From assembly GCA_003233295.1 (NCBI GenBank), contig QILJ01000442.1, positions 1 to 5,648 on the forward strand: a stretch of DNA of 5,648 nucleotides, in the 5' to 3' direction. Shown in pieces: positions 1 through 5,648 of the stretch. How positions within the stretch are numbered: the first letter of the stretch is position 1; each line of letters starts with the position of its first letter. Both the position numbers and the translations under genes were made by a program. Source of the DNA: Ignavibacteria bacterium. Its GTDB lineage: Bacteria; Bacteroidota; Ignavibacteria; Ignavibacteriales; Melioribacteraceae. The notes beneath the pieces were generated by a model, which saw only the letters and a list, made by a program, of their open reading frames with translations, made no database searches and was not told the DNA's origin.

Positions 1-175
1 AAAATACGAATTATTCAAATTAATTTCAGGATGAAATTATAGTCTTTGCCCTTTATTCTGAAGAGATGATGATTTTACGACCAAGTACTATCTAGCGATT
101 TAGAGCTTAATTTTCTTAACAAATTAGTGACAAAAGCCGTTGTCTGTGAAGCTCCCAAGGAGAAACGGTTACGCT
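1..175. other. Left flank of the IS with no recognisable gene
   Basis: The stretch is AT-rich with stops in all frames I read. Joining it to the DapA fragment across one AATT copy gives only 19 further codons (SVTVSPWELH…) before a TAA at 116-118. They do not resemble the next DapA strand. A minor stem (CTCC 152-155 / GGAG 159-162, with CCGTT/AACGG outside) is too weak to call. I see no tRNA, promoter or repeat array. Confidence 0.5.
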
Positions 176-179
176 AATT
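176..179. repeat. Probable target-site duplication, left copy (AATT)
   Basis: AATT here and AATT at 1662-1665 directly flank the terminal repeats. The motif is short, AT-rich and palindromic, so it could equally be part of a longer terminal repeat or chance. Confidence 0.5.
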
Positions 180-191
180 AGGGTCTGCTCA
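180..191 (+). repeat. Left terminal inverted repeat of the IS
   Basis: AGGGTCTGCTCA matches the reverse complement of 1650-1661 at 11 of 12 positions. The transposase stop is only 5 bp inside it (197-199), so this end has no spare non-coding DNA. Confidence 0.82.
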
Positions 192-196
192 GAAAG

Positions 197-1594
197 TCAG
201 AAATGGAAGTTGTGTAATTGGGCAAATCTAACAATGTTAGCCACAAAGAGCGTAAGCCCAATCCAAGTTTCAGAAGTACCTTTTAGTTTAGCTTTTATTT
301 GATTAAGTCCAAAGGCTTGTTTTGCTTGCCCAATTTTACCCTCTATTTGATTACGTCTTCCATATTCTTTTTTGCGTTTAGCTTTTTGGTAAGCAGATAA
401 TTTTTTAGGTTTTCCTTTCGGAGTAGCTGACAATCGGATATTATTGTTTCTACACCAAACTCTGTTTTTATTAGTTGCATAGATCTTATCTGCAAGAATT
501 AGTTCGGGATAATAACCATAAAGGGTTTTATAGGCTTCAGCCTGCATTATTAAATCAGAACTTTCATTGTAAGCATCCCAACTTAATGTGTCGCCTTTTA
601 CAAATCCATTGGCGAGAGAAAGCCCTAATTTAGAACCGAACTCTACTTTTCGTCCTTGCTTGCCTCTTACTATCGGACGAACATGCGGCTGTGAAATGCT
701 TAGAATTCTGTCATCACATCGGTTCGTTTTTTCTCGATACATTTTCCTTTGCTGCTCATTTAATGTCTGTATTACCCAGAACTGACGCATCTGTTTATAT
801 TCTAACGGATTTTCTTCCAACATATCCAGCATCATATTTATGCTGCGTATGTTTCTATCTAAGCAATTTAACTGATATCTGATAGCGCTGCGTAAGGTTT
901 TCTTATTCTTTTGTCGCTTCTTTGCTTCCGACATATATTTTTTATGCGCTACCTTACGGTATGTTCTTGGTTTTACCTTTATTTTTGTTTTAAGTTCTTC
1001 AAATAAAAAATCTATAATGTCTTCTGTCTTTTCCCTTGCATCATTTAATAATCCTAGGTCATTTGGATATTGTATGTATTGGTCGGCAACGGTAGCGTCT
1101 ATTTTCATTTCGCCTTTGTTTTCTGCCGATTCTTCTTTGCTTATCTTTTCGGGAAAACAAATCTTTATCAATTCATCACTAAATTGATTAAAAACATCGT
1201 TGCCTAATCTCTTTCTTATATCAACAAATACAGTTTGCGAAAAAAGGAAATTTGGATTAAATGAATTGCAATCAAGGAAAAATTGCATATACGGGTTCTC
1301 GCTAATGATTTGGAGAGTCTCTTGATCAGATAGTCTAAGAACATGTTTTATGATAAGACTTCCAATAATCCATCGCGGGTTAATTGCCGGCGTTCCTTGT
1401 TTGCTTGAGAACTTAGATTTATATATCTTTACCAGAGCATCCCAAGGAAGAAGACAACCGAGTTGAATCCATCTATTAGATTGATTCAACTCAAGAGAAT
1501 AGAGATTGTTAAATTCTGTTATTTTTGTTTGATATTGAGAAGTATATTCAACCATATGCAAGGTTTTATTGTAAACATACGTTATTCCTTGCAT
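197..1594 (-). CDS. IS5-type DDE transposase
   Basis: The protein has 465 residues from the first ATG and cuts and joins the IS ends. The N-terminal part (about 40-130: NRWIQLGCLLPW, WIIGSLIIKHVLRLSDQETLQIISENPYMQFF) is the DUF772-like DNA-binding region of IS5-type transposases. The catalytic triad is Asp166 (MKIDATVAD), Asp369 (LILADKIYA) and Glu418. Glu418 sits in the C-terminal signature Y411-R414-E418-K425, a perfect Y(2)R(3)E(6)K. A long basic helical stretch (about 205-290) separates the first two Asp residues. Two starts are possible. Met1 (1594) has a weak AAGGG nine bases upstream. Met14 (1555) begins MVEYTSQ, close to where I recall relatives starting, but has no ribosome binding site. 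No frameshift or stop interrupts it, so it is probably active or recently active. The exact IS5 subgroup cannot be set by eye. Confidence 0.92.
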   Translation of the reverse strand: MQGITYVYNKTLHMVEYTSQYQTKITEFNNLYSLELNQSNRWIQLGCLLPWDALVKIYKSKFSSKQGTPAINPRWIIGSLIIKHVLRLSDQETLQIISENPYMQFFLDCNSFNPNFLFSQTVFVDIRKRLGNDVFNQFSDELIKICFPEKISKEESAENKGEMKIDATVADQYIQYPNDLGLLNDAREKTEDIIDFLFEELKTKIKVKPRTYRKVAHKKYMSEAKKRQKNKKTLRSAIRYQLNCLDRNIRSINMMLDMLEENPLEYKQMRQFWVIQTLNEQQRKMYREKTNRCDDRILSISQPHVRPIVRGKQGRKVEFGSKLGLSLANGFVKGDTLSWDAYNESSDLIMQAEAYKTLYGYYPELILADKIYATNKNRVWCRNNNIRLSATPKGKPKKLSAYQKAKRKKEYGRRNQIEGKIGQAKQAFGLNQIKAKLKGTSETWIGLTLFVANIVRFAQLHNFHF

Positions 1595-1596
1595 AT
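1554..1596 (-). promoter_or_regulatory. Inverted repeat spanning both candidate transposase start codons
   Basis: The minus strand has ATATGCAAGG (1596-1587), 23 bases, then CCTTGCATAT (1563-1554), a perfect 10-bp stem. The ATG of Met1 lies inside the first arm, and two bases of the Met14 ATG lie at the end of the second. In a transcript reading in from the operon both starts would be paired. Several IS elements use a hairpin in this way to block transposase synthesis from outside promoters. The stem is seen; its role is inferred. Confidence 0.5.
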
Positions 1597-1644
1597 ATCC
1601 AAGCCCTTTTTTGACTTATTCCCTTTTATTTCAATACTTTACGT

Positions 1645-1660
1645 GGGTTTGAGCAAACCC
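1645..1660. repeat. Palindrome at the right IS end
   Basis: GGGTTTG and CAAACCC form a 7-bp perfect stem with a 2-base centre (AG). It overlaps the right terminal repeat and sits between operon and transposase. It has no T-run on the minus-strand side, so it is not a standard intrinsic terminator. Confidence 0.5.
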
Positions 1661-1661
1661 T
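1650..1661 (-). repeat. Right terminal inverted repeat of the IS
   Basis: On the minus strand this reads AGGGTTTGCTCA. It is embedded in a near-perfect palindrome, GGGTTTG-AG-CAAACCC (1645-1660), which the left end does not share. Confidence 0.82.
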
Positions 1662-1665
1662 AATT
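1662..1665. repeat. Probable target-site duplication, right copy (AATT)
   Basis: This partner of 176-179 overlaps the last intact codons of the DapA-family fragment (…Leu-Ile-Ile). Confidence 0.5.
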
Positions 1666-1856
1666 ATCAGTTTTCTTTCTTCAATTGAAAGTTTATTTAC
1701 CTCTCCCGCCATTGCAGTAACCAAAATCCCGACACCTCCACATTCAACAACATAATTCACATATCGTTTTATAGAATCGAAATCGATTTCATTATCATCG
1801 GTGAAAGGAGTGTTCATAACTCCAACAATACCATTTAATTTCCATGCGGAATTCAT
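1662..1856 (-). pseudogene. DapA/N-acetylneuraminate lyase-family gene, 5' fragment cut by the IS
   Basis: The first 65 codons are intact and begin with ATG at 1856-1854, one base after the TAA of the FAH gene (1858-1860). Translational coupling is therefore likely, and I see no strong ribosome binding site. GIVGVMNTPFTDD and DFDSIKRYVNYVVECGGVGILV match the first strands and helix of the DapA TIM barrel. T-A-M-A-G-E (47-52) replaces the usual GTTGE pyruvate-binding loop, with Met49-Ala50 for the two threonines. The family is about 290-310 residues, so roughly four fifths are missing, including the Schiff-base lysine. The frame runs on into the IS end and stops at 1626-1628, adding 11 foreign residues. 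There is no signal peptide, unlike the two genes before it. The left side of the IS does not carry the remainder. As it stands the gene should be non-functional. Confidence 0.85.
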
Positions 1857-1857
1857 C

Positions 1858-2742
1858 TTATTTTTTCGCTACTATTTTGCTTGAAAATTTTCCGAGTCCG
1901 TCAATCTCAATTGTAACAATATCACCGATGCCGGCGGTAAAAGATTTTGCAGTACCGGATGAAATGATATCGCCTGGATTTAGCGTTAAAACTTTTGAAA
2001 GATCACTTACTATTTTTTCCGGTGTGTAAAGGATATCGGAAGTATTTTCAGAATATTCAACTTCTTGCTCACCTACCGCAGAAGTAATAGTTAACTTTTT
2101 AGCTCTATTCTTCCAATCAATTCCTTGATAAATAAATGGTCCGAACGGTTCAAATCCATCGCCAATTTTTAACCCCGACCCTAATAAAGCTCCGGCAGAT
2201 TCCGGCGACTCATTATTCTTTTCTAGATATGATTGTTTATTCCCGACAATATCATTCCCAATCGTGTAACCGAAAATTGCTTTTGCTGCCTCTTCTGGTG
2301 AAGCGTTTTTAATTCTCTTTCCGATCACGATCACTAACTCAACTTCAACTTTAATCTCATTTAAGGAAGCAGGCAGAATAAGATTATCATCAGGATTCCC
2401 CGCAGAAGTAGGCGGTTTGAGAAACCAACGAACAGTTTTAGGCGGAGTTTTCCCCACCCATGATTGCTTGTAAGAACTCCCTAATCCCAATATTACCTGC
2501 GGTTCGCTTGGGTGAAGTAATTTTACTTTTTCTAGTTCAATTCTCTCGCCGGTCTCACTTCCACCCAACCAAGGAGCTTTATCCAATTCAGTAATAAATT
2601 TCCCTTCAACTCTTCCATAGTGATCAGATCCATGAATTTCATAACGACAGTACTTTGTTTGTGCGAACATAATAGTATTTCCAATAGTTATCATTAGTAA
2701 CAGAATTATAGCTGCTGTTTTTTTGCTCATCATTATTTCCAT
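1858..2742 (-). CDS. Exported fumarylacetoacetate hydrolase (FAH)-family protein
   Basis: The protein is 294 residues from the first ATG. The better start is Met5 (ATG 2730-2728), which has GGAAA (2736-2740) five bases upstream and gives a classic signal peptide: MSKKTAA, a hydrophobic core, then MFAQ. The FAH domain covers about 80-292. RWFLKPPTS and LILP are the usual substrate-side segments. The metal site E-x-E is Glu133/Glu135 in VEVELVIVIGK, with Asp164 in YTIGNDIVGN. Lys192 aligns with the conserved Lys before the 'FxPxGP' motif. The protein ends with LNPGDIISSGTAKSF, then GDIVTIEIDGLG. The His30/Glu33 catalytic pair of FAHD1 ('NYxxHxxE') is replaced by Ser94 and Gly97 (SSYKQSWVG). Metal binding is therefore likely kept, but the reaction may not be the standard acylpyruvate hydrolysis or decarboxylation. 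FAH proteins are normally cytosolic, so the signal peptide is unusual. It is followed after one base by the DapA-family start. Confidence 0.88.
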   Translation of the reverse strand: MEIMMSKKTAAIILLLMITIGNTIMFAQTKYCRYEIHGSDHYGRVEGKFITELDKAPWLGGSETGERIELEKVKLLHPSEPQVILGLGSSYKQSWVGKTPPKTVRWFLKPPTSAGNPDDNLILPASLNEIKVEVELVIVIGKRIKNASPEEAAKAIFGYTIGNDIVGNKQSYLEKNNESPESAGALLGSGLKIGDGFEPFGPFIYQGIDWKNRAKKLTITSAVGEQEVEYSENTSDILYTPEKIVSDLSKVLTLNPGDIISSGTAKSFTAGIGDIVTIEIDGLGKFSSKIVAKK

Positions 2743-2840
2743 TTTTTAAAATTACAATTTTACAGATATTCGAATACGTGATTTACATGCTTGATAGTTC
2801 CGAGATACTCACTGCCTTTATTCGATTGTTCGTCAATCAA
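2743..2840. other. Intergenic gap with a 10-bp palindrome
   Basis: This is the longest gap inside the apparent operon; the others are 1, 25 and 37 bp. It holds a perfect palindrome TATTCGAATA at 2767-2776. It also holds a short GATTG/CAATC inverted repeat (2824-2828 and 2834-2838) just after the aldolase stop. The latter is too weak, and lacks a T-run, for a confident terminator. I found no convincing -35/-10 pair or Bacteroidota-type promoter. The palindrome could be an operator or chance. Confidence 0.3.
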
Positions 2841-3842
2841 TTATTCTTCATTCTGGTTTTTATTATTTATCCACGGCATTTTTCTTTTTGTGAATTCTCT
2901 TCCTATCTCAGCTGCATCTTCTCTTCTCCCAGCGCCTATCATTACACCTTTCTTTATTCTTTTAACTACATTATCTGGTAAAACATTGTCGAGAAAGAAA
3001 AGCCCGTTTTTTTTACAAAGCGTTAAAACACTATCGCCTGCAGCTTGAACTTCCGGTGGAACTGGCGGGTCAGCGCGTCCTTCAGTGTAGCCCAGATAAA
3101 ATCCGTAATCTCTTGGACCATGTTCTGCAAAACACAAACCAGGTGTCGCTAATGTCTTTTCTGCATTGGATAGTGCAATTGGGTCTTCCAATTTAACTCC
3201 CAACATCAATTCTCCTTCCGGATTCAATGGCCAAACATCTGCTTTCTGCAAATATTCTTGTTCACTTATACCCCAGACCCAAGCTGCAAATTTTTGACTT
3301 CCCCATCCTCGGAAACCTTTCCCGATAATATCGATCTTTTCATGATGGATCGGGTATCTGCAAACCTGCACATATTTTTTTACTGCCTCAGGATCCCGCG
3401 CTCGGGCTAAATGAATTCCATGAACACCTTGCGCTAATGCCTGCTGAACCATCCATGAACCGCCCATGAAAGAAACCGAGTCCGTTCCTAAAACCGGTAG
3501 TGACACTATTACTGTTGGTGTTCTATGCCCGCTAGGTGTTGGTCCGCCGTCGACCAATCCTTTCATGAACGCGCGAAGTTTTGTAAAGTCAAGAGGCATG
3601 TGCTCCATATTATATATTAAATAATCTGCCCATGTTTGACTTAATTTCTTTCCTTCCTCGTATCCGCCTTTCCCTACTGCATAATAGATAGGCTGTCCCG
3701 CCTCAAATAATTCGATACACTTATTAACACGTTTCGGCTGCCATTTTGTATCATTATTCTGTGCAAGCAGATCTGACTGCAGCAGTAATAGCGCCATTAA
3801 CAATAGAACAGTCAAATAAGAATTAATTTTTGTTATCAGCAT
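2841..3842 (-). CDS. Exported HpcH/HpaI aldolase-family protein
   Basis: The protein has 333 residues. Residues 1-28 look like a Sec signal peptide: MLITK, a long Leu/Met/Ala core, then LLA before Gln28-Asn29. The rest follows the HpcH/HpaI (class II pyruvate aldolase, TIM-barrel) order. ADYLIYN-MEH-MP has His81 where HpaI has catalytic His45. GVHGIHLARA with DPEA and CRYP replaces the usual 'VPMV...EA...RYPP'. FRGWG stands for the RGVG region. VKLED has Glu219 matching metal ligand Glu149. GLCFAEHGPRDYG matches 'GVDGVFIGPADLS'. Two key positions differ from E. coli HpaI: Arg70 (oxo-acid binding) aligns with Ser114, and metal ligand Asp175 aligns with Cys237, with Glu240 close by. Canonical members cleave 4-hydroxy-2-oxo acids to pyruvate plus an aldehyde in the cytosol. 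Here the location is probably periplasmic and the substrate may differ. The fold assignment is solid; activity is not shown. Confidence 0.86.
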   Translation of the reverse strand: MLITKINSYLTVLLLMALLLLQSDLLAQNNDTKWQPKRVNKCIELFEAGQPIYYAVGKGGYEEGKKLSQTWADYLIYNMEHMPLDFTKLRAFMKGLVDGGPTPSGHRTPTVIVSLPVLGTDSVSFMGGSWMVQQALAQGVHGIHLARARDPEAVKKYVQVCRYPIHHEKIDIIGKGFRGWGSQKFAAWVWGISEQEYLQKADVWPLNPEGELMLGVKLEDPIALSNAEKTLATPGLCFAEHGPRDYGFYLGYTEGRADPPVPPEVQAAGDSVLTLCKKNGLFFLDNVLPDNVVKRIKKGVMIGAGRREDAAEIGREFTKRKMPWINNKNQNEE

Positions 3843-3845
3843 GTT

Positions 3846-3851
3846 TTCTCC
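3846..3851 (-). promoter_or_regulatory. Ribosome binding site of the HpcH/HpaI-family gene
   Basis: The minus strand reads GGAGAA three bases before the ATG at 3842-3840 (slightly short spacing). It is the same hexamer used by the lipoprotein gene upstream and fixes this start, from which a signal peptide follows directly. Confidence 0.7.
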
Positions 3852-3879
3852 ATAATTTTATAAAATATTTTAGAACTCA

Positions 3880-5475
3880 TTATTTAATTCTATAAGTTGA
3901 TAATATATTTATTGTCGTCTCTCCAGAAAATTTCCCCCACAACTCAATTGAATTTGATTTATTTGCTTTTACTACACTCCATCTTTCCTCAACCTTAACA
4001 ACTCTATTCACCAATTCATTTTCTGCAAATTCTTTATTCAATAGTATCATTTCAGTGAAAGAATCTTTTGTAGAGTAATTGGAAGAAGCTATATTCAAAT
4101 TCAAAACATCGTTCTTGAATTTTGGGATTTTTGAATAATTCTTTCCCTCTTTAATTGGATATTGCATATTATTATTGGAAACCTCAGCATCAACATCCTG
4201 TTTATAATCACCCCAAATAATATTATCCTTAACTACAAAAGGTTTTAATCCTTTTTTAGTTTCAACAAGTAAAAAATTATCAAGGATTGTATTTCGAGAG
4301 ATCAATACTTCACTTCTTTGAAAATAAATCCCATTATTAAATGCAGTAATATTATTTGTAAATTCGCCTCGACCTTCCATTGTGAAGCGCATTGCGCCTG
4401 AATTCATTGATGCATTTCTATTTCCTATAATCGTATTGCTTGCAATGGAAACAAAAAATTTATCCCTTGGTGGGATTGGGTCTAAAGGTGCGTCGTAACG
4501 ATGTTCTTGTCCGCCCACAAAGATTGCGCCTGCATCATCTCCGGCTTCATTATCTACAAAAACATTATTAATAATATTTGCCGAACTCCAGAGAGCCACC
4601 CAAACTCCTCCGGCATCATTATGTGCCAATGCAGTATTACCGAGGAAAATATTATTATCGATATCGGCTGTGCTCCATCTAAATATTGAAACTGCTCCAG
4701 CATCACTACTGCGCATAGGATCGTCAAGACCAGCTGTATTATTCAGGAATACATTATTAGCAATTTTCAAATGACATTTTTTATCAGCAGCTACTGCTCC
4801 CCCTCTTCCGTTTTCAGTTTGATTACCGATAAAGAGATTATTTTTAATATTCATCTCAGCACCATCGCTGCAGTATATTGCACCGCCGTCATTAGCTGTT
4901 TCATGCCAGTACTTCGGGTTCCAGTGTTTCGGTTTCAAGGTTTTATTCCCAGCGAATACATTATTCGATACTGTAACATTTTTAGATGTTGTAAATATTG
5001 CAGCACCTTTATCCCTAATTTGTCCTTTCATTAAAGTGAAACCGTCAATCCTCGTATCATCCGATAATGTCATTATCCTGTCCTTTCTTGAACCGGAAAT
5101 TATTGTTTTATATTTCTCAATATTCCGTTCTTTGAATTTCGGGCAATAACCGCCGAACAATTCTGTTCCGTCTTTAATTTTAAGTCCGTCTTCTTCATAA
5201 ATTCCCTCGGCAATCAAAACAGCATTCTTTCCATTGCCATTAATTTCTTCCAGACCTGCCTGAATTGAGTTGAAAGGTTTTTCCTTTGTACCATTACCCT
5301 TTTCATCAGCTTTAATCGAAACATAAATTATATTTGAATATTCATTTAAGTCAACTATTTCGGTAACCGGTCCTTTTCGTGTTACTTCAATAGATCCTTT
5401 TTTCGTTTGATTATCCGGCGCTTTACAAGCTGATAAGAATACAATCAAAACCAAGATCATTATTTTTCTTAGCAT
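3880..5475 (-). CDS. Right-handed parallel beta-helix lipoprotein (pectin-lyase-like fold, DUF1565-like N-terminus)
   Basis: The protein has 531 residues. Residues 1-17 are a lipoprotein signal: basic MLRK, a hydrophobic core, then the lipobox LSAC with Cys17 as the lipidated residue. Lys18 at +2 does not suggest inner-membrane retention, so an outer-membrane or surface location is likely. Residues about 48-110 (IIYVS..., GTKEKPF, IAEGIY, LFGGY) match the usual opening of DUF1565/pectin-lyase-fold proteins. From about 130 to 435 there are irregular coils marked by NN-[VLI]-F-x-x-N at 171, 212, 240, 274 and 303, with looser copies at about 346, 374 and 395. Between them are 'GGAI/DAGAV/DAGGV' turns. 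The stacked asparagines are typical of an Asn ladder in a beta-helix. Residues about 470-531 form a separate beta-rich tail. Such proteins bind or cleave polysaccharides, but I see no catalytic motif that separates a lyase from a binding protein. It is second in the apparent operon, 37 bp before the aldolase-family gene. Confidence 0.85.
   Translation of the reverse strand: MLRKIMILVLIVFLSACKAPDNQTKKGSIEVTRKGPVTEIVDLNEYSNIIYVSIKADEKGNGTKEKPFNSIQAGLEEINGNGKNAVLIAEGIYEEDGLKIKDGTELFGGYCPKFKERNIEKYKTIISGSRKDRIMTLSDDTRIDGFTLMKGQIRDKGAAIFTTSKNVTVSNNVFAGNKTLKPKHWNPKYWHETANDGGAIYCSDGAEMNIKNNLFIGNQTENGRGGAVAADKKCHLKIANNVFLNNTAGLDDPMRSSDAGAVSIFRWSTADIDNNIFLGNTALAHNDAGGVWVALWSSANIINNVFVDNEAGDDAGAIFVGGQEHRYDAPLDPIPPRDKFFVSIASNTIIGNRNASMNSGAMRFTMEGRGEFTNNITAFNNGIYFQRSEVLISRNTILDNFLLVETKKGLKPFVVKDNIIWGDYKQDVDAEVSNNNMQYPIKEGKNYSKIPKFKNDVLNLNIASSNYSTKDSFTEMILLNKEFAENELVNRVVKVEERWSVVKANKSNSIELWGKFSGETTINILSTYRIK
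4558..4965 (-). repeat. Coil repeats inside the beta-helix gene (I-x-NN-x-F-x-x-N)
   Basis: Five clear copies of the motif NN-[VLI]-F fall at residues 171, 212, 240, 274 and 303, spaced 41, 28, 34 and 29 residues. At DNA level several copies share an ATTATT-containing block on the plus strand (for example ATACATTATT near 4960 and 4750). The shared DNA follows largely from the shared Asn-Asn codons. This is a protein structural repeat, not a mobile or CRISPR-type repeat. Confidence 0.7.
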
Positions 5476-5480
5476 AACAT

Positions 5481-5486
5481 TTCTCC
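5481..5486 (-). promoter_or_regulatory. Ribosome binding site of the beta-helix lipoprotein gene
   Basis: Read on the minus strand this is GGAGAA, five bases before the ATG at 5475-5473. It supports that start codon, and the lipoprotein signal begins there. It falls in the 25-bp gap after the upstream stop, leaving little room for a separate promoter and favouring co-transcription. Confidence 0.75.
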
Positions 5487-5500
5487 ATTTAACAAAATTA

Positions 5501-5647
5501 TTAGTTTACAAACTGCATAGAATAAAGTTTCGAACCTCTCATTCTGAAAACTAATTTCACGACTTTCCCTTCTAATGATGAAACATCGCTGCTTGAATTT
5601 ATCTTCTTTGCATTCTCCAGCATTTTATCCTCGTCCTCGCTGAAGAA
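5501..5647 (-). CDS. C-terminal end of an upstream gene, possibly a secreted glycoside-hydrolase-like protein (partial)
   Basis: An open minus-strand frame enters from the right window edge and gives 48 residues before a TAA stop at 5501-5503. Its 5' part lies outside the window. The visible tail ends LEGKVVKLVFRMRGSKLYSMQF-VN. The pattern 'L-x-GK-x-V-x-L-x-F-x-(M/L)-x-x-(A/S)-x-LYS-x-QF' resembles the C-termini of some secreted glycosidase or sialidase-like and concanavalin-fold proteins, where 'LYS-x-x-F' closes the last beta strand. That assignment is from memory of the family and is tentative. That the frame is real is better supported: it is co-directional with the next gene, its stop is 25 bp before that gene's ATG, and the residue composition is protein-like. 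It is probably the upstream member of the same operon. No catalytic residues are visible, so the reaction cannot be named. Confidence 0.62.
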   Translation of the reverse strand, partial: FFSEDEDKMLENAKKINSSSDVSSLEGKVVKLVFRMRGSKLYSMQFVN

Positions 5648-5648
5648 C

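Follow-up and report, generated by a model that had tools for sequence, protein, structure and literature searches.

Can a bacterium free and split a sugar acid outside its cytoplasm? The question is raised by a 5,648-nucleotide stretch of DNA (the window; here, the whole stretch analyzed) from an Ignavibacteria bacterium of the Melioribacteraceae (GCA_003233295.1, QILJ01000442.1, positions 1 to 5,648), in which genes for an exported protein of the HpcH/HpaI aldolase fold and for a right-handed beta-helix lipoprotein lie side by side. Splitting the carbon chain of a sugar acid is generally regarded as a cytosolic step. An earlier, sequence-only reading saw here an operon of three 2-oxo-acid enzyme folds and proposed an exported route for a polysaccharide-derived acid. 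Our best explanation, to which as a whole we give slightly less than an even chance, is that the window represents the interrupted 3' portion of a gene cluster acting on a polyanionic glycan outside the cytoplasm. The cluster probably degrades a sugar polymer extracellularly, with the beta-helix protein and the exported aldolase-like protein as its core.

Beta-helix protein as a constant partner of HpcH

A pattern-led scan of one genome per species (84,980 species) returned 49 loci. The 36 close relatives among them (L001 to L036) were used here, and the other 13, which are 21 to 28% identical, were set aside. A beta-helix protein is encoded directly upstream of HpcH, on the same strand, in 31 of the 36 loci, and in 16 of these the two are fused in a single open frame, with the HpcH domain C-terminal and a linker of 12 to 18 residues. 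Three of the five loci without the beta-helix protein (L005, L032, and L033) have fewer than 730 bases before HpcH; the remaining two are L036, where only part of HpcH is present, and L031, which at 54% identity diverges most. The window beta-helix protein is 37 to 52% identical to 19 aligned relatives. The sequence-only reading had treated it as mere company, a view that these counts overturn.

The pairing was also evident at the genome level. In the phylum of genome G002 (82 genomes), a beta-helix neighbor scoring at least 690 bits was found in all eight genomes with an HpcH match of at least 560 bits and in 1 of the 74 others. Of the 82 genomes, 13 match the HpcH profile, and the count takes in only the eight that reach this threshold. 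G638 has as its best match a 201-bit fragment located where a contig ends, and it went into the group of 74. In the phylum and the class of Melioribacter roseus (G003; locus L003), the same two genomes exceeded 560 bits in samples of 296 and 341, and the family is rare there. On the locus and genome counts, chance or a contig artifact was rejected as the cause of the neighborhood. Two observations run counter to constant pairing. Locus L095 (G639, also in the phylum of G002) has the beta-helix protein with no HpcH match in the 3.9 kb covered (about 1.3 kb downstream), and a second, more distant beta-helix copy (348 to 388 bits) occurs in three genomes (G642:C10:28804, G018:C182:3839, and G006:C5:61200).

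In a tree of 33 locus HpcH domains (L032, L035, and L036 left out), the window groups with the Melioribacteraceae locus L001 (support, 95/90). A single clade (97/89) contains all 15 fused rows along with the unfused L014, L022, and L024. This clade mixes Acidobacteriota, Pseudomonadota, and Planctomycetota, which suggests transfer between phyla. Named hosts are Hephaestia caeni DSM 25527, Bythopirellula polymerisocia Pla144, and Melioribacter roseus (as a metagenome-assembled genome).

Invariant Asp, Arg, His, and Trp residues occur in the beta-helix family, including Asp196, Arg255, Asp258, Asp287, Asp313, His325, Arg363, and Arg369. Judged from the alignment, their number would seem to exceed the apparent need of a mere scaffold.

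Export of the HpcH and FAH proteins

Export signals were predicted with two crude rules. The looser one (hydrophobic stretch, basic start, and AxA site or lipobox) flags 4 of 27 presumed cytosolic controls (2 of 12 from Escherichia coli and 2 of 15 locus proteins) and catches both exported controls; the stricter one, which uses hydrophobicity alone, passes 1 of the 27. Two of four twin-Arg proteins are overlooked. By this heuristic, the window encodes a beta-helix lipoprotein, Sec-type signals on HpcH and on a protein of the FAH superfamily, and no signal on the start of a DapA-family gene, in agreement with the sequence-only reading.

We examined 120 of the 2458 HpcH relatives above the search threshold. 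A signal was predicted for 111 of these 120 by the looser rule (2 of them without a cleavage motif) and for 107 by the stricter one. Seven of the nine that fail begin late or within the hydrophobic stretch and look like late start calls; two carry long extra N termini. Likewise, a hydrophobic stretch stands immediately before the beta-helix core in 14 of the 16 fused proteins, with a mean hydropathy of 1.86 to 3.58 (at least 2.4 in 11 of the 14); the other two are L018, which begins inside the domain, and L012, which was not located. As far as predicted signals can tell, export of HpcH is a family trait.

The idea that signals are conserved wherever the gene order recurs held for HpcH and failed for FAH. 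Signals were predicted by either rule in 85 of 120 listed FAH relatives. Fourteen of the 120 start within 8 residues of the core, with no room for a signal, and several others look like start miscalls. In L007, which has the order beta-helix, HpcH, FAH, DapA, the FAH protein lacks a signal and stops lie upstream; its HpcH and FAH genes are separated by 736 bases and two small open reading frames. The FAH protein of L078, encoded straight after HpcH, also lacks a signal by eye. Predicted export of FAH is inconstant.

Fold and active site of the HpcH protein

The match of the window protein to PF03328 exceeds the cutoff of 25 by a narrow margin (28.3 bits), and the predicted fold agrees with it. 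The protein is modeled as the (beta/alpha)8 barrel of a class II pyruvate aldolase; the structure model used was the second, built from 123 rows, and not the first, which came from 25 similar rows (predicted local distance difference test score, 58.5). Glu219, Asp245, and His81 align with the Glu, Asp, and His of YfaU and are kept in 52 of 52 aligned orthologues and in all 33 rows of a second alignment, which leaves out the partial L027, L032, L035, and L036. We take the first two to be metal ligands and His81 to be the catalytic His. Further residues are fixed in the orthologues and rare or absent in an exported sister family: Arg147 in 51 of 52, and Glu240, His241, Arg244, Arg256, Asp258, and Asp285 in all 52. 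Because the putative metal ligands and the His are invariant and these polar residues are fixed, the active site looks re-tuned rather than decayed.

Gene neighborhood

Neighbors were counted up to 10 kb on each side in the 36 loci with locus-derived profiles; since HpcH often lies close to the end of a contig, some neighbors are undercounted. The most frequent were a LamG-type protein (25 loci), a sulfatase (15), a PhoD-like phosphatase (14), and a twin-arginine translocation (Tat)-type protein of the MR/MLE superfamily (14). They were followed by an SSS symporter (10), a cytosolic MR/MLE protein (7), a TonB receptor (6), and FAH (5). Aldehyde dehydrogenase, a BT_1020-like propeller, a PA14/BNR protein, and DapA were each found in 4 loci, and LacI, PdxA, and a DUF1537 kinase each in 3. 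By family assignment, the neighborhood is one of glycan and sugar-acid catabolism.

The four Tat-type MR/MLE proteins inspected (L029:4471-5766, L021:4704-6011, and those of L019 and L015) all have twin-Arg starts. Their presumed active-site residues are conserved: the acidic ligand positions of E. coli dgoD and its two His are retained, the first Asp being changed to Glu. The L029 protein reaches 286 bits against NF010624 (cutoff, 311). The Tat-type MR/MLE protein is a second, putatively exported sugar-acid enzyme fold within the same clusters.

The propeller protein of L003 matches residues 26 to 595 of BT1020 (PDB 5mqr; 1,108 amino acids) with 420 bits. The barrel of BT1020 is assigned to GH142 (PMC7263609), and its other site is described as a GH143 hydrolase with a five-fold propeller that releases the 2-keto-3-deoxy acid 3-deoxy-D-lyxo-heptulosaric acid (Dha) (PMC6811678). 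In the phylum of G002, the GH143-type family occurs in 6 of the 8 HpcH genomes and in 5 of the 74 others. The gene lies 3.8 to 12.5 kb from HpcH in five of those six, and about 5 kb from it in L003.

Two further conserved neighbor families were seen, one of about 360 amino acids (L003:12817-13899 and L007:13435-14517) and one of about 410 (L003:16837-18066 and L001:4337-5572). The L003 member of each has no Pfam match above the cutoff.

Proposed function and alternative explanations

The substrates of HpcH-family aldolases are of the 4-hydroxy-2-oxo-3-deoxy acid type, to which Dha, 3-deoxy-D-manno-octulosonic acid (Kdo), 2-keto-3-deoxynonulosonic acid (Kdn), and dehydrated aldonates belong. 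We tentatively propose, at the same level of belief as the explanation given at the outset, that the core unit combines a glycan-binding or glycan-cleaving beta-helix with an exported protein related to the class II pyruvate aldolases but rewired, and that together they free and split a 2-oxo-3-deoxy sugar acid outside the cytoplasm; the pairing and fusion, the sequence-level export signals, the predicted fold, the residues retained or lost, and the neighbors are observed, and the substrate, the C-C cleavage, the metal binding, and the replacement Arg are parts that we infer. Glycosidases or the beta-helix module would release a 2-oxo-3-deoxy (4-hydroxy) sugar acid of the Dha, Kdo, or dehydrated aldonate kind. 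Glu219 and Asp245 of the HpcH domain would then hold a divalent metal that binds the 2-oxo-acid end of this acid, His81 would be the acid/base, and a relocated Arg (Arg147, Arg244, or both) would stand in for the catalytic Arg70. Splitting of the C3-C4 bond would yield pyruvate and an aldehyde or aldehyde acid, and transporters would import the products. FAH could act on acids of this kind in an optional additional step, as a C-C hydrolase or an isomerase. Cleavage would most simply take place outside the cytoplasm, because the cluster may free such an acid there and exports an HpcH fold joined to a glycan-binding type of fold. Of the route in the sequence-only reading, then, the export of HpcH and the glycan and sugar-acid setting are borne out, and the three-enzyme unit is not. 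A more specific form of the proposal, in which the fused proteins are a secreted two-domain enzyme family with glycan-active beta-helix and rewired class II aldolase in one polypeptide, freeing the sugar acid and cutting its chain extracellularly, seems possible but is held with more doubt.

Several observations weigh against cleavage of such an acid by this HpcH family. Arg70 and His45 of E. coli HpaI are reported to matter for both C-C cleavage and stabilization of the enolate (PMC8560999). The equivalent position 114 is not Arg in 51 of the 52 orthologues, the window protein included, and the single orthologue that does have Arg there weakens the case for a fully fixed swap. At position 115, where the YfaU Arg falls in two alignments, none of the 52 has Arg. 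The closest profile of a known aldolase is the equivalog TIGR02311 (4-hydroxy-2-oxoheptanedioate aldolase HpaI), against which the window protein scores 20.3 bits, far short of the 368.8 required. In the neighborhood, the large-family profiles pick up every member within 10 kb regardless of kinship and may therefore overcount sulfatases, TonB receptors, and symporters. Among 15 further HpcH genomes, the search for a GH143-type protein succeeded in only 4, which include the genome of L003 and that of L001, the locus closest to the window, in the latter on another contig; no Pseudomonadota or Planctomycetota locus among the 36 has one. Because of these two results, Dha cannot be assumed for all loci. 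A four-carbon product of Dha would suit the PdxA/DUF1537 route for four-carbon acids in L022, L023, and L029. This link is speculative, because those loci and their genomes G013, G014, and G017 lack a GH143-type gene.

The changed position 114 also fits an alternative in which the fold of the HpcH domain has been reused without catalysis, to bind an acidic sugar and act as sensor, carrier, or anchor for the beta-helix enzyme. The same position is Arg in 70 of 71 aligned paralogues of the exported sister family, and the fused beta-helix, with its many invariant Asp, Arg, and His residues, could be the real catalyst. We consider this unlikely, as the putative metal Glu and Asp and the His remain invariant and the seven fixed residues, from Arg147 to Asp285, accompany them. 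Another possibility is that the beta-helix protein is a polysaccharide lyase leaving a 4,5-unsaturated uronate, whose open-chain form, a 4-deoxy-5-keto uronate and thus a 2-oxo-3-deoxy acid, is the HpcH substrate. The right-handed beta-helix is a common lyase fold, and the constant pairing and the fusions point to one protein making the substrate of the other. However, the window protein has no lyase family match in Pfam or NCBIfam by sequence, and a PDB sequence search with the beta-helix alignment returned no solved lyase, only two tRNA-ligase matches (E values, 0.00068 and 0.0099) regarded as chance. Sulfatases and BNR/GH143-like proteins, moreover, point to hydrolysis in some loci, and a lyase pair likewise seems improbable. 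Finally, the Tat-type relatives of galactonate dehydratase in 14 of the 36 loci, together with the twin-Arg starts and dgoD positions of the four inspected and the NF010624 score of the L029 protein, could indicate an exported non-phosphorylative aldonate route in which the dehydratase-like protein makes a 2-keto-3-deoxy aldonate that HpcH splits, with no ulosonic acid involved. Such a protein was not seen in the closest Melioribacteraceae and KSB1 loci (L001, L003, and L007, on contigs of limited length), and we regard this route as quite unlikely. Extracytoplasmic freeing and splitting of a 2-oxo-3-deoxy sugar acid remains the explanation we prefer.

Gene order and remaining features of the window

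The features of the window are listed in Table 1. In the direction of transcription on the minus strand, the order is the tail of an upstream gene, beta-helix, HpcH, FAH, the DapA stump, and an insertion sequence (IS) element, with gaps of 37 bases between beta-helix and HpcH, 98 between HpcH and FAH, and 1 between FAH and the DapA start.

Table 1. Features of the 5,648-nucleotide window
Feature	Positions	Strand	Evidence
Upstream gene, 3' end (last 48 codons)	5501-5647	-	Tail compared with C termini of 22 locus proteins
Right-handed beta-helix lipoprotein, 531 amino acids, lipobox LSAC	3880-5475	-	Pfam Beta_helix, 47.5 bits
Exported HpcH/HpaI-fold protein, 333 amino acids, signal at about residues 1-28	2841-3842	-	PF03328, 28.3 bits
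Exported FAH-superfamily protein, 294 amino acids (290 from a later ATG), accessory	1858-2742	-	PF01557, 127.6 bits, and Rv2993c-like_N
DapA/NAL-family 5' stump, 65 codons	1661-1856	-	DHDPS profile positions 2-64 of 289
IS5-type insertion element	181-1660	.	Imperfect terminal inverted repeats; TAATTA direct repeats at 175-180 and 1661-1666
IS5-family transposase, 465 amino acids	197-1594	-	NF033578, 348 bits (cutoff, 275); DDE_Tnp_1_2

The sequence-only reading had HpcH/HpaI, FAH, and DapA genes lying consecutively on one strand, the last two a single base apart. The strand, the spacing, and the intact HpcH/HpaI and FAH genes were confirmed, with the qualification that DapA is a remnant: the IS5-type element interrupts it after codon 65, and its open reading frame of 76 amino acids continues into the element as far as position 1626. 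The coverage of the stump falls short of DapA/NAL membership, which calls for a complete (beta/alpha)8 enzyme with the Schiff-base Lys. Three intact enzymes in one operon are thus ruled out, and FAH, present in 5 of the 36 loci (the next profiled gene after HpcH in 4) and followed by DapA in 2, was rejected as an obligate part. FAH-superfamily membership itself is clear from the Pfam score and the Glu133, Glu135, and Asp164 triad, which is invariant across 26 aligned sequences and presumably binds the metal.

The stump is 52% identical over 66 residues to L003_09 (308 amino acids) and 47% over 62 residues to L007_12 (304 amino acids), both full-length and directly after FAH, which suggests what the cut site formerly held. 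These relatives (L003:11903-12829 and L007:12516-13430) retain, by eye, a Lys in what we take to be the usual strand, seemingly without the usual Tyr. The element belongs to the IS5 family by its transposase, terminal inverted repeats, and flanking direct repeats. Bases 1 to 186, judged by eye in six frames, show no DapA-like continuation. Because the far flank (1 to 180) seems to lack the rest of DapA, further rearrangement or deletion beyond the insertion is likely.

Upstream of the beta-helix gene, where the sequence-only reading had placed a possible glycosidase, only the last 48 codons of a gene remain. They are 45 to 79% identical to the C termini of the 22 locus proteins (best E value, 1.25e-15), namely the fragment L007_00 and all but one of the 22 members of clustered family C1. 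The family occurs in 25 of the 36 loci, and its unbroken members have about 690 to 1,030 amino acids. The L021 relative, the only one scanned, carries a Laminin_G_3 (LamG-like) domain, and this large protein has no solved relative by sequence at an E value of 0.01. A phage or provirus origin was rejected; the viral-contig scan gave nine pattern matches and no confirmed relative.

Implications

Every part of the cluster belongs to a known superfamily; what appears to be new is an exported HpcH family with a swapped Arg, together with its beta-helix fusions. Searches of an open-access library returned no title or opening abstract line on an exported or beta-helix-linked HpcH/HpaI protein, an absence that is weak evidence. 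If our explanation is true, some bacteria carry glycan breakdown outside the cytoplasm all the way to small acids, pyruvate among them, which would affect carbon allocation in the community, and they would do so in several phyla. The near-complete swap of the catalytic Arg offers a natural experiment in the re-tuning of a class II aldolase site, and the named hosts render the family testable.

Comparison with known systems

Compared with HpaI/HpcH, YfaU (RhmA), GarL, and SwHKA, all of PF03328, the window family is exported and is 16 to 22% identical in structural alignments. It differs from class II pyruvate aldolases in general by the loss of the catalytic Arg in 51 of 52 members, the Arg at 147, and the frequent fusion to a beta-helix. 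With the exported sister family (P0241 to P0360), it shares NK, MEH, and DVWPLNP motifs and a signal-like N terminus (101 of 120 listed members, or 97 by the stricter rule). However, the sister family retains the Arg70 equivalent and is 21 to 31% identical to the window protein. Source annotations call some of its members HpcH/HpaI aldolase or 4-hydroxy-2-oxoheptanedioate aldolase. It also occurs in L083, L087, and L088, and the source names include Planctomycetota, Acidobacteriota, Latescibacterota, and Verrucomicrobiota.

The release of Dha from rhamnogalacturonan II by BT1020 (GH143) of Bacteroides thetaiotaomicron resembles our system in that relatives of the N-terminal half of BT1020 are encoded near HpcH. 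The GH142 half lies outside the match, which is one of sequence, and the available part of PMC6811678 mentions no HpcH or beta-helix partner. The cytosolic non-phosphorylative rhamnonate route of E. coli (rhmD and yfaU) likewise clusters genes for a dehydratase and an HpcH-family aldolase. In contrast to YfaU and RhmD, which have no signal, HpcH carries one here, as does the dehydratase-like protein in some loci.

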